A stretch of 64,000 nt of DNA from positions 2,914,001-2,978,000 of the forward strand of contig CP073750.1 of assembly GCA_024398135.1 (NCBI GenBank), given 5' to 3'. The stretch is from a bacterium SCSIO 12643. Lineage in GTDB: Bacteria; Bacteroidota; Bacteroidia; Flavobacteriales_G; Salibacteraceae. Below are positions 35,280 to 39,689 of the stretch, in pieces (position 1 is the first letter of the stretch; every line of letters starts with the position of its first letter). The notes beneath the pieces are model-generated. The model saw nothing but the letters and a program-made list of their open reading frames with translations. It did no database searches and was not told the origin of the DNA. A program made the translations under genes and the position numbers.

Positions 35280-35329
35280 GTACACTTGATGCAGAGTGAA
35301 ACACAATATTTTGACCCGGAATTTGATTT

Positions 35330-35354
35330 TGCAGACAAATATTGCCGTTTGGCA
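35330..35354. promoter_or_regulatory. 25-bp dyad upstream of lytS-like gene (copy 1)
   Basis: TGCAGACAA-N7-CGTTTGGCA is an imperfect inverted repeat. Its right arm and overall spacing match a second dyad at 37167-37191, just after the response-regulator gene. It is a candidate LytTR binding site. Confidence 0.5.
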
Positions 35355-35379
35355 TAATAGATTTTTATTCCCTGGTAAA

Positions 35380-35403
35380 AAGACACATTTTTGGATGTGT
35401 TTT
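35380..35403 (+). terminator. Hairpin with T-tract in the lytS leader
   Basis: AAGACACAT pairs with ATGTGTTTT (one G-U) around a TTTTGG loop and is followed by TTTTCTT, 14 bp before the kinase ATG. It could terminate the AlkD-like transcript or attenuate the kinase operon. Confidence 0.45.
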
Positions 35404-35417
35404 CTTGAAATGGAATT

Positions 35418-36464
35418 ATGAAAAAGTCGGTTAAAGCTTTATTACATGCTGGATTTTGGTTTAGCTATTTGGTGCTGGGAATCGTTATTATTGGAGTGAT
35501 ATATGGTAGTAGACAAGAAATTCAGGAAGCCAAGTTTATTAATGCTTTTTTGACCATAGTTTTCTTTGTGTATTTTCCATCGGCATTATCATTTTATTCC
35601 TACTACTTTGTAGTATTTCCCAGATATCTTCAGAAAAACAAAATCTGGCAAGCTGTAATACTAGGGATTCTAACTGCATTTGTGTCTTCGCTGATTGGGA
35701 ATGTGATATTTTCAATGACCGAGATTGGTTTTCAATGTGCGGCTGATGGTACATGGGAAACATTTTGGGGGGCGGTAGCATTTATTTCGTTTATCGCATT
35801 GATCAATGGGGTTGTGGCCATCGTTATTCGAGGGTTTATGACCTGGTATGATCAACTGAAATTGACAGAGCAATTGAGACAAAAGAATCATGAGATGGAA
35901 TTGTCATTGGTAAAAGCGCAGTTGGATCCACATTTCCTATTCAATACCATTAATAATATTGATGTACTTATCGTTAAAAATGCCGAAGATGCATCTGCAT
36001 ATTTAAACCGACTTTCGGATATCATGCGTTTTATGTTGTTTGAAACTAAAACGGATAATGTTCCTTTATCAAAAGAGATCGTTTATATTGAGAAGTATAT
36101 TGAATTACAGAAAATTAGAACATCTAATTCGAATTATATTCGTTATCAGGTGACCGGTAGTCCAGAAGGTAAAACCATTGCCCCAATGGTTTTTATCCCT
36201 TTTATTGAAAATGCGTTTAAGCACACCACAAATAAGAAGATTGATGATGCCATTAACGTTGAAATTCATATATCTGAGAATGCGGTAGAGTTGATTTGCG
36301 TGAACAAATATGATTCGACCAGAAAATTGAAAAAAGATAGCAATGGTTTGGGAAATGAACTGATTCAAAAAAGACTGAATCTAATCTATCCCGATCAACA
36401 TACTTTGGAAATTATCAATGAAAACGAAATATATCAGGTACGATTAATCATTCACCATGGATAA
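35418..36464 (+). CDS. LytS/YehU-type sensor histidine kinase
   Basis: A 348-residue membrane kinase of the His_kinase (PF06580) family. Four membrane helices span about 8-30, 40-62, 78-100 and 115-140. The phospho-acceptor is His172 in KAQLDPHFLFNTINN. The ATPase domain (about 240-345) contains the N box FIPFIENAFKHT and GLGNELIQKRLNLIY. It overlaps its LytTR response-regulator partner by 8 bp. The signal is unknown. A dyad and a hairpin lie in its upstream region (35330-35403). Confidence 0.92.
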   Translation: MKKSVKALLHAGFWFSYLVLGIVIIGVIYGSRQEIQEAKFINAFLTIVFFVYFPSALSFYSYYFVVFPRYLQKNKIWQAVILGILTAFVSSLIGNVIFSMTEIGFQCAADGTWETFWGAVAFISFIALINGVVAIVIRGFMTWYDQLKLTEQLRQKNHEMELSLVKAQLDPHFLFNTINNIDVLIVKNAEDASAYLNRLSDIMRFMLFETKTDNVPLSKEIVYIEKYIELQKIRTSNSNYIRYQVTGSPEGKTIAPMVFIPFIENAFKHTTNKKIDDAINVEIHISENAVELICVNKYDSTRKLKKDSNGLGNELIQKRLNLIYPDQHTLEIINENEIYQVRLIIHHG

Positions 36465-37155
36465 ATATTCTTGCATCATAATTGAAGATGAGCCATTGGC
36501 TTTGGAGCGTACAAAAGACTTTGTGGAGAAGATTCCTTTCTTGAAATTAAGTGCATCCTTTGATAACGCTTTGAGTGGACTGTCGTATTTGAAAAAGAAC
36601 CGAGTAGATCTGTTGTTTTTGGATTTGAATATGGATGAACTTTCGGGAATAGAATTATTGGAGAGTTCAAAGATTGATAGCCAGGTAATCATTACAACAG
36701 CCTATCCTGAATATGCCTTAAAAGGGTATGAACTCAATGTTACAGACTATTTATTGAAACCTTTCACATTTGACCGTTTTCTTCAGGCGGTAAATAAAGC
36801 GCAGGAAAACATTTCGATTATATCATCAAACCCCACACTTGATTTCATTTTTGTAAAGACCGAAAACAGATTAGAAAAAGTCACTTTAGATGATGTGATT
36901 TACATTGAAGGAATGCGCGATTATCGTAGAATTCATACCGTGAATAAACGTATTATGACCCTTCAGAATTTCAAAGAATTAGAACGGATTATTCCATCTA
37001 ACCTGGTGTGTAGAGTACATAAATCGTATATGGTAGCTCCAAGTAAAATAGACTCTATCGAACGTAGTCGTATTCGCATTGCGGATCAAATTATTCCTAT
37101 CTCAGACACCTATAGAGAATCATTTTTTCAAATGATCAATAATCAGCCTCAATAG
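36457..37155 (+). CDS. LytTR-family response regulator
   Basis: A 232-residue regulator. The receiver domain (1-120) has the acidic pair Glu10-Asp11, the phospho-acceptor Asp56 in LLFLDLNMDELS and the conserved Lys in YLLKPF. The C-terminal LytTR domain (about 135-230) reads FVKTENRLEKVTLDDVIYIEGMRDYRRIHT and later CRVHKSYMVAPSKIDSIERSRIRI, the DNA-binding beta fold. It is translationally coupled to the kinase. The shared dyads at 35330 and 37167 make it a likely autoregulator and a regulator of the next gene, a TonB-dependent receptor. Confidence 0.93.
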   Translation: MDKYSCIIIEDEPLALERTKDFVEKIPFLKLSASFDNALSGLSYLKKNRVDLLFLDLNMDELSGIELLESSKIDSQVIITTAYPEYALKGYELNVTDYLLKPFTFDRFLQAVNKAQENISIISSNPTLDFIFVKTENRLEKVTLDDVIYIEGMRDYRRIHTVNKRIMTLQNFKELERIIPSNLVCRVHKSYMVAPSKIDSIERSRIRIADQIIPISDTYRESFFQMINNQPQ

Positions 37156-37166
37156 CTAAAATGGTT

Positions 37167-37191
37167 TGCCGAACGAAATGAGCGTTTGGCA
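37167..37191. promoter_or_regulatory. 25-bp dyad upstream of TonB receptor (copy 2)
   Basis: TGCCGAACG-N7-CGTTTGGCA is a near-perfect 9-bp inverted repeat (one G-T). It matches copy 1 (35330-35354) in right arm and spacing. It sits 93 bp before the TonB-receptor ATG and 11 bp after the response-regulator stop. Confidence 0.55.
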
Positions 37192-37283
37192 GACACATTT
37201 ATCGGGTTTGCATATCAAAATTGTAAGGCTAAACCGCTTCATAGACATTTGTTTAAGTATTAAAAACCTATTTAAACATAAAC

Positions 37284-39689
37284 ATGAAAAAGTTAATTGC
37301 AATTCTGGTATTAATGTATGGTTTGACCACATTAGGACAAGGCCAAAAACTGACGCAAACGGTTAGAGGAACCGTTCTGGATATAGATAGCAGATTACCC
37401 TTAATCGGAGCTCAGGTACGACTGGTAGATTCAAATCCTTTGGTTGGAACGGTGACCGATGTGGATGGAAAATTTAGATTAGAAAATGTGCCCTTGGGCA
37501 GAATTACTTTGGAGTTTTCTTATGTAGGTTATGAATCTATGAGAGTCCCCAATATTGTGGTGAATTCAGGTAAAGAAGTGATACTGAATATCAATATGCA
37601 AGAGGCGGTGGTTAAAATGAACGAGTTCGTGGTTCGGGCAAATGACAACAAAGGAGAAGCTTTAAACGATATGGTAATTACCAGTGGGCGTTCTGTATCT
37701 ATTGAAGAGACTGAGCGGTATGCAGGAAGTTTTAATGATCCATCAAGAATTCTGGCCAATTTTGCTGGAGTTGGGAATTCACAGGATGGAGGGAATGATA
37801 TTATCGTAAGAGGAAATTCTCCTAAATACGTACAATGGCGTTTGGAAGGAATTCAAATTACTAACCCGAATCACTTTGCAGATCAAAACTCTGTGGGAGG
37901 TGGAATTAGTGCTTTAAACAATAATTTATTGGCCACATCTGATTTTTATACCGGAGCATTTTCCCCGGAGTATGGTGATGTTTTATCCGGAGTATATGAT
38001 GTGAAGTTGCGATCAGGAAATAATGAAAAATTCGAATCCATTTTTGGCTTGGGGTTACTTGGTACGGATTTGACTATGGAAGGCCCTTTGAAGAAAGGAT
38101 ATGGAGGTTCTTTTTTAGTCAACTACAGATATTCTACAGTTTCATTAATTAACGACTTAGGTTTGGTAGATATTAACGGAACGCCAAGGTTTCAGGATGC
38201 CACTTTTAAAATGGTGTTGCCTACCAAAAAAGCAGGAACGTTTTCTGTGTTTGGATTAGGGGGATTGAGTAATTTATCACTAGATGATGTTAAGCAAAAT
38301 ATTTGGGATTTACCGGGAGAGAACGGTTCACGTGAAGAGATTACAGAAGACTTCAGTAAAGATTCATATCTAATGAATTTAGGATTGAATCACACGTTAC
38401 CCTTGAGTAAGAATAGTTATCTTAAAACTACACTGGCGTATGCTTCAAATGGAGTGAAAGATGACGTGACAGAGAATAGATGGGCCAACGATTCTATTAT
38501 CAGCAGCGATTATGGCTATAGATCAAAAATTGAAGCTGCAACTTATCGCGGAGCGGTGACCTACAGCAATAAATTGAATGCTAAAAACAAGATTCAAATA
38601 GGAACCAGATTCACTTTAGCGGATTATTCTAATAATCAATCTATGGTGCTGGATTCAACTTCAGGTCGTGTAACGTTGGTTGATTTTCATGAGAACATCA
38701 GTAATATGAATAATTTCATCAGTTGGAAGCACCGATTGAATGAAAACATCACATTAGTTGGTGGGATTCAAAATATGAATGTACTGTATAATCAGAAAAG
38801 TACCATTGAACCAAGATTGGCCGGAAGTATAAAACTAAATACTAAAAACACCCTTACGGCAGGGTATGGATTACACAGTACGATGGAAAGTTTGCATCAT
38901 TATTTTGCCAAGGTGCAACAACCTGATGGTTCCATTATAGAACCCAATAAAGATTTAGGGTTGCTAAAAGCACATCATTTTGTGGTAGGATTTGAAAGGA
39001 GAATTACACCTTCTTTAAGAGCCAAGGTAGAGGTGTATTACCAACATTTGTATGATTTACCAGTAGAGAACAATGACACTAGTTATTACGCTACCATTAA
39101 TGAAGGGTTGGAGTTTGGTTTTATGGATTTAGTGAACGAAGGAACCGGTAAAAATTATGGTGTTGAATTGACATTGGAGCGTTTCTTCAATAACAATTAT
39201 TACTTTCTGATAACAGGATCATTTTTCAATTCGAAGTATCAATCACTGGAAGGAGTAGAGAGAAATACTACATACAATAGCAATTATTTGATGAATTTTT
39301 TAGCTGGAAAGCAGTTTGATCATCTGGGTAAGAAGAAAAATCAAATTCTATCTCTAAATGCCAAAGTATACTTTGGAGGTGGTCGTAAAATTATACCACT
39401 GTTACGTGATGATCAGGGAAATTTAGCGGTAGACCCGGATAATAATCAATACTGGGATTACAAAAAAGCGTACAATAATGATTTGGAGGATGTCTACTCT
39501 GTAACGATATCAGCGAGTTATAAGTTTAATAGAGAGAAAACAACCCACGAAATCTTTTTAAACCTGGATAACATTACCAATGCACAAGCTAAGCTTTCTG
39601 AGTATTATGATGAAAGCCAGCCGAATAATATTGGATATGTATCGCAGTTCGGTACGTTTCCTAATTTGATGTATCGTATTTATTTTTAA
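37284..39689 (+). CDS. TonB-dependent outer-membrane receptor
   Basis: An 801-residue outer-membrane protein. A signal peptide ends near GQGQ (residue 20); a carboxypeptidase-regulatory-like beta-sandwich (about 25-110) begins VRGTVLDIDSRLPLIGAQVRLVD; the plug domain (about 125-240) contains ILANFAGVGNSQDGGNDIIVRGNSPKYVQWRLEG; the rest is the beta-barrel ending in an aromatic residue (MYRIYF). It imports an unknown ligand using TonB energy. It is downstream of the LytS/LytTR pair with a candidate operator between, and no SusD-like partner is next to it, which argues against a glycan PUL. Confidence 0.9.
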   Translation: MKKLIAILVLMYGLTTLGQGQKLTQTVRGTVLDIDSRLPLIGAQVRLVDSNPLVGTVTDVDGKFRLENVPLGRITLEFSYVGYESMRVPNIVVNSGKEVILNINMQEAVVKMNEFVVRANDNKGEALNDMVITSGRSVSIEETERYAGSFNDPSRILANFAGVGNSQDGGNDIIVRGNSPKYVQWRLEGIQITNPNHFADQNSVGGGISALNNNLLATSDFYTGAFSPEYGDVLSGVYDVKLRSGNNEKFESIFGLGLLGTDLTMEGPLKKGYGGSFLVNYRYSTVSLINDLGLVDINGTPRFQDATFKMVLPTKKAGTFSVFGLGGLSNLSLDDVKQNIWDLPGENGSREEITEDFSKDSYLMNLGLNHTLPLSKNSYLKTTLAYASNGVKDDVTENRWANDSIISSDYGYRSKIEAATYRGAVTYSNKLNAKNKIQIGTRFTLADYSNNQSMVLDSTSGRVTLVDFHENISNMNNFISWKHRLNENITLVGGIQNMNVLYNQKSTIEPRLAGSIKLNTKNTLTAGYGLHSTMESLHHYFAKVQQPDGSIIEPNKDLGLLKAHHFVVGFERRITPSLRAKVEVYYQHLYDLPVENNDTSYYATINEGLEFGFMDLVNEGTGKNYGVELTLERFFNNNYYFLITGSFFNSKYQSLEGVERNTTYNSNYLMNFLAGKQFDHLGKKKNQILSLNAKVYFGGGRKIIPLLRDDQGNLAVDPDNNQYWDYKKAYNNDLEDVYSVTISASYKFNREKTTHEIFLNLDNITNAQAKLSEYYDESQPNNIGYVSQFGTFPNLMYRIYF

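Follow-up and report, generated by a model that had tools for sequence, protein, structure and literature searches.

Introduction

BtsS/BtsR is, like YpdA/YpdB, a LytS/LytTR system with two direct repeats that recur about every 21 bp, and each of these systems has a single target. The sites of LytTR proteins consist of repeats of 9-11 nt that lie 11-13 nt apart and have no common consensus (PMC4847170). Known sites are usually located upstream of the -35 region and are activating (PMC4847170, PMC11347149, PMC6193735). For E. coli YpdB they are the GGCATTTCAT repeats at yhjX (PMC4847170). The operators of RcoM (TTCNNGCA) and CoxC (TTNNNGCN) have been described as triple tandem repeats in direct orientation, spaced by two turns of the helix (PMC11347149). 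The LRS systems (HdrRM/BrsRM) have direct repeats 5' of their own promoter, show positive autoregulation and act on separate target promoters (PMC6193735).

Here, we describe a locus of SCSIO 12643 within a window of 64,000 nt (CP073750.1, GCA_024398135.1), the stretch of DNA to which all coordinates refer. A sequence-only reading had proposed that a 25-bp dyad is shared by the regions before a lytS gene and before a TonB receptor gene, and that a LytTR regulator controls both. We show that each element is part of an array in which the half-site TT[T/C/G]GCMGA recurs every 21 bp in the same orientation, and that the two are not a shared dyad. The feature is a real, conserved regulatory one; the biology of the first reading was mostly right, its anatomy was wrong. 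Most probably, the two elements are the operators of the LytTR regulator encoded between them, which in its phosphorylated form would activate its own operon and the receptor.

The locus shares with YpdA/YpdB and BtsS/BtsR the combination of a LytS-type kinase and a LytTR regulator, as well as the architecture of direct repeats that recur about every 21 bp; in those systems the repeats are two in number and lie upstream of a single envelope-protein target. It differs from them in half-site sequence and targets, in its predicted promoters of the Bacteroidota -33/-7 type, and in having three half-sites at the target plus a further array at the promoter of the regulator itself. The window LytR scores 99 bits against the BtsR equivalog (NCBIfam NF008677), for which the cut-off is 246, and thus it is not BtsR. 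Triple direct-repeat operators and a similar TT...GC half-site are found in RcoM and CoxC; unlike the window system, these are single-component sensors without a kinase, their targets belong to proteobacterial CO oxidation, and CoxC represses. LRS systems combine direct repeats at their own promoter with separate target promoters, as we propose for the window. However, their LytTR regulator is paired with a membrane inhibitor, and the window system is not an LRS because the partner is a His_kinase protein (PF06580) and a receiver domain is present in the regulator. The window feature would appear to be a LytTR operator of known architecture, for whose half-site and regulon we found no description; the open-licence literature yielded no described LytTR site, half-site or regulon in Bacteroidota.

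Results

The lytR gene overlaps lytS by 8 bp (Table 1). Pfam recognises Response_reg and LytTR in the regulator and His_kinase (PF06580) in its partner, with 63.0 (cut-off 30.2), 54.0 (22.6) and 81.8 bits (25.2), and the pair is a LytTR-family response regulator with a LytS-type kinase. By protein similarity the window LytR has 31 matches in its own genome, and with so many other LytTR-type homologues crosstalk is possible.

Table 1. Features of the lytS-lytR-receptor locus (window coordinates)
Feature	Position	Strand	Sequence or basis
DNA-alkylation-repair-type gene, upstream neighbour	ends 35279		
Operator 1, half-site 1	35328..35335	+	TTTGCAGA; sequence; perfect genome-wide pattern match; conserved 5' of lytS orthologues
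Operator 1, half-site 2	35349..35356	+	TTGGCATA; 21 bp after half-site 1; genome-wide pattern match; orthologue columns
Predicted lytS promoter	35362..35393	+	TTT (-33-like) 35362-35364; CATTTTTG (-7-like) 35386-35393; aligned orthologue columns
lytS-type membrane sensor kinase, 348 aa	35418..36464	+	Pfam His_kinase PF06580
lytR-type response regulator, 232 aa	36457..37155	+	Response_reg + LytTR
Operator 2, half-site 1	37165..37172	+	TTTGCCGA; sequence; array comparison
Operator 2, half-site 2	37186..37193	+	TTGGCAGA; sequence; genome-wide pattern match; array comparison
Operator 2, half-site 3	37207..37214	+	TTTGCATA; genome-wide pattern match; array comparison
Predicted receptor promoter	37219..37251	+	AATTG (-33) 37219-37223; GACATTTG (-7) 37244-37251; aligned orthologue columns
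Outer-membrane TonB-dependent-receptor-type protein, 801 aa, predicted target	37284..39689	+	CarboxypepD_reg-like N-terminal domain; orthologues

In both arrays the half-sites are 8 bp long, separated by 13 bp and repeated every 21 bp on the same strand. LytTR direct-repeat operators have direct repeats of about 9 bp, about 10-13 bp apart, upstream of a promoter, and both arrays have this form. The strings from which the dyad had been derived, TGCAGACAA-N7-CGTTTGGCA at 35330-35354 and TGCCGAACG-N7-CGTTTGGCA at 37167-37191, are present as given, and their common right arm CGTTTGGCA has no other mismatch-free occurrence in the window. Half-site 3 of operator 2 had been overlooked because it lies outside the 25-mer. 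Several half-sites of the window (TTTGCCGA, TTGGCAGA and TTGGCATA) depart from the consensus.

The CGTTTGG core had been read as a LytTR half-site, since in each element it agrees with [TA][AC][CA]GTTN[AG][TG] at 8 of 9 positions. The arithmetic is right for both elements, but CGTTTGG is not the conserved half-site; the conserved orthologue columns are TTTGCAGA/TTTGCATA instead. By our own calculation, so degenerate a consensus is expected to be matched at 8/9 or better once in roughly 140 positions on each strand, and thus an 8/9 match says little. The conserved half-site, TTTGCAGAC, itself fits the consensus at only 4 of 9 positions. A 10-mer, AGACACATTT, does recur at 35381-35390 and 37191-37200 as had been reported. 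It is no part of the half-site and was rejected as an element, since its registers differ: at 37191 it lies inside the operator spacer, whereas at 35381 it covers the -7 box and begins 32 nt downstream of the first base of the last half-site. Its recurrence looks coincidental.

A search of the 4.1-Mb genome with TTNGCAGA-N13-TTNGCAKA gave exactly two perfect matches, both at the lytSR-receptor locus, and none with the reversed pattern. The original strings thus reflect something beyond chance, as the direct-repeat pattern beneath them has two perfect matches genome-wide and is strongly conserved at orthologous positions. Outside the lytSR locus, matches with one mismatch lie mostly inside ORFs and include no convincing further regulon member in this genome; two of them (L048, L176) are intergenic, without further support. 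In 16 genomes that carry the cassette we found 0-8 perfect matches each, many of them at the lytSR locus, and 2 control matches in total. Within the family, 35 genomes were scanned and only 5 contain any perfect match.

The direct repetition every 21 bp was first recognised upstream of lytS orthologues from the same taxonomic family, as TTCGCAGA-N13-TTTGCAGA (L007), TTTGCAGA-N13-TTTGCAGA (L010), TTCGCAGA-N13-CTTGCAGA (L009), GTTGCAGG-N13-TTAGCAGA (L008) and TTCACAGA-N13-TTTGCAGA (L017). The half-site pattern was fixed before it was tested on 80 orthologous lytR loci, which came from a protein search with the LytR alignment and were chosen by LytR protein similarity only; at least one of them (L151) is the same contig as G001, a genome used in the earlier comparison. 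Pairs with period 21 are found upstream of lytS in 46 of 69 loci and downstream of lytR in 50 of 78. For the other periods (15-20 and 22-30) the numbers are 0-7 loci upstream and 0-4 downstream. Dinucleotide shuffles gave a mean of 0.7 upstream and 0.55 downstream (maximum 2 and 3), the reversed sequence 0 and 2, and the opposite strand 3 and 1. The automatic test assigned both arrays to 38 of the 69 loci with both regions, the upstream array only to 10, the downstream array only to 15 and neither to 6. One of these six (L172) has an array before the ABC-transporter gene that stands ahead of lytS. In L174 no lytS was recognised in front of lytR, and the array lies directly before lytR itself.

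Some features of individual relatives were also noted. An ABC-transporter ATPase gene adjoins lytSR in some genomes (L172, L011), with the array of L172 (L172:1638-1687) in front of it. Upstream of lytS, L011 (G012) has on the minus strand the direct repeat TCACCGAT-N13-TCACCGAT, with the 21-bp period and an altered half-site. Its LytR reads GMGDYRRIH where most orthologues have GMRDYRRIH; L017 also reads GMGDYRRIH, yet it has a normal half-site. Just 3' of lytR in L007 (G013), TTTGAATTCGGTC is repeated at a 21-bp period and is unlike the TTTGCAGA half-site.

Bacteroidota promoters have the -33/-7 elements TTTG and TAnnTTTG (PMC6847099; also PMC9723704). When orthologues are aligned on the last half-site, TT(G/T) appears at +14 and TTTG at +41 from its start, alike in the upstream and downstream sets, and the array therefore lies 5-6 bp from the predicted -33 region, on its upstream side. 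In the orthologue columns aligned with the receptor promoter, conservation is 98/94% (TT) and 96/96/88/92% (TTTG). The gap between operator 1 and the predicted -33 region of lytS-lytR is 5 bp, that between operator 2 and the predicted receptor -33 element 6 bp, while the -7 TTTG of the window, at 35390-35393 and 37248-37251, stands exactly at +41 in both arrays. The TTTG and the A are conserved at the right spacing in orthologues; in the predicted promoters of the window, C (lytS) or G (receptor) replaces the initial T of the -7 element. A two-box promoter made of the TTTG...TTTG inside the 25-mers was rejected, as the spacing between the two is too short and the predicted promoter lies further downstream. 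By eye, a hairpin-like AAGACACAT-TTTTGG-ATGTGTTTTCTT at 35380-35406, over the predicted lytS -7 box, is not conserved in relatives.

In seven loci (the window, L095, L099, L119, L134, L146 and L160) lytS-lytR is followed by the receptor, with receptors that are 55-66% identical to that of the window, and all seven, window included, have the array before the receptor. The persistence of the dyads in close relatives with this gene order had been set as a test of the first reading; the dyad as such is absent from them, but an operator overlapping its place is present in 6 of 6. None of four related receptors that lie away from lytR (G002, G004, G008, G012; 54-74% identical) has an array. Arrays at receptors next to lytSR and their absence at these four tie the operator to the gene beside lytSR and not to the receptor as such. 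In Spirosoma telluris (L119) 208 bp separate the array from the receptor that follows it and 438 bp separate it from lytR. Another array, with a predicted promoter (L119:8305-8333), follows the receptor gene and precedes an OMP_b-brl_2 gene, a candidate case of two output families in one regulon.

Discussion

A near-unique array before both genes, conserved in dozens of Bacteroidota, makes it very probable that the regulator activates the receptor as well as its own operon. Conservation, specificity across the genome, the geometry of the promoters and the comparison of receptors all lend good support to this part of the earlier proposal. Against it stand the half-sites of the window that depart from the consensus and the loci in which neither array was recognised. 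Upon stimulation of the LytS kinase, phosphorylated LytR would bind both arrays, at 8-bp half-sites of the TTTGCAGA / TTTGCATA type on the same strand. The 21-bp period would put successive regulator molecules on the same side of the double helix, two turns from each other, and from there they would recruit RNA polymerase. At the lytS-lytR promoter LytR would raise its own expression by positive autoregulation, and at the receptor promoter it would switch on the outer-membrane receptor. Binding by the window LytR is predicted from sequence, as is activation rather than repression; the latter we infer from the position of the arrays 5-6 bp 5' of the -33 region, the usual place of LytTR activators, which is upstream of the -35 region (PMC6193735, PMC11347149).

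Repression from the same sites has to be considered, with LytR holding down itself and the receptor until the signal arrives. The LytTR-domain regulator CoxC acts as a repressor, and its operator of three repeats overlaps the -35 region (PMC11347149); for this reason the direction of regulation here is not certain. However, the arrays of the window end before the -33 region, in a fixed phase and in the layout of LytTR activators, which makes repression unlikely. We regard it as extremely improbable that the elements are inverted-repeat operators to which LytR or some other regulator binds head-to-head. The second element is a dyad at 8 of 9 positions, inverse repeats have been reported for some LytTR sites (PMC4847170), and since the TGCA inside each half-site is palindromic any pair will show some dyad symmetry. 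Yet the arms of the first element are complementary at only 4 of 9 positions, so that the dyad is not shared even within the window. In relatives complementarity averages 4.8/9 upstream and 4.6/9 downstream and reaches at least 8/9 in 1 of 102 pairs. When half-sites 1 and 2 were compared in 51 three-site arrays, the direct alignment was the better one in 45 and the inverted alignment in none. The third half-site, with the same orientation and period, also speaks against a dyad.

The link to the receptor deserves separate consideration, as the second array might be a terminal part of the lytSR unit, or act elsewhere, with the receptor a chance neighbour. The gene after lytR does vary widely, and a genome of the same genus (G001; L006/L151) keeps the array with a different next gene, encoding a 219-aa protein without Pfam match. 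However, array and fixed-phase promoter stand just before 55 of 68 co-oriented next genes, compared with an array before 2 of 8 genes in opposite orientation, both of them short, doubtful ORFs. In Spirosoma telluris the array has moved away from lytR together with the receptor and another one precedes the OMP_b-brl_2 gene, while receptors away from lytR lack it. We consider a chance neighbourhood very unlikely and prefer the receptor as a target of LytR.

On balance we favor a broader reading, namely a Bacteroidota-wide LytS-LytR cassette with its own operator code, TTTGCAGA-N13-TTKGCAGA-N13-TTTGCATA. Its own promoter would carry two half-sites and the following promoter usually three, its output gene would be exchanged freely between lineages, and its regulon would be very small and so far undescribed. 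Besides the receptor, the genes after lytR encode an OMP_b-brl_2 protein (28 loci, array in 25), a beta-lactamase-fold hydrolase (7 loci, array in 6), a DUF2306 membrane protein (7 loci, array in 6) or a DUF4386 protein (2 loci, array in both). If the reading is correct, the cassette combines a conserved sensing module with exchangeable outputs, most of them in the envelope. Its regulator would be tied to target genes from sequence alone, and the grouping of these five types of functionally uncharacterised envelope protein as outputs of one regulator family may help to find a common signal. LytSR-type systems are numerous in Bacteroidota, and the operator described here is concrete and testable.

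Additional operator-like arrays were seen hundreds to thousands of bases from lytR (L117:9275-9303, L108:2082-2110, L103:1257-1285, L124:5830-5858). The genes behind them encode a beta-lactamase-like protein (L117) and a 404-aa protein whose N-terminus resembles a signal peptide (L108); in L103 and L124 the arrays stand before small ORFs that look like membrane proteins. All of these are candidate further regulon members.
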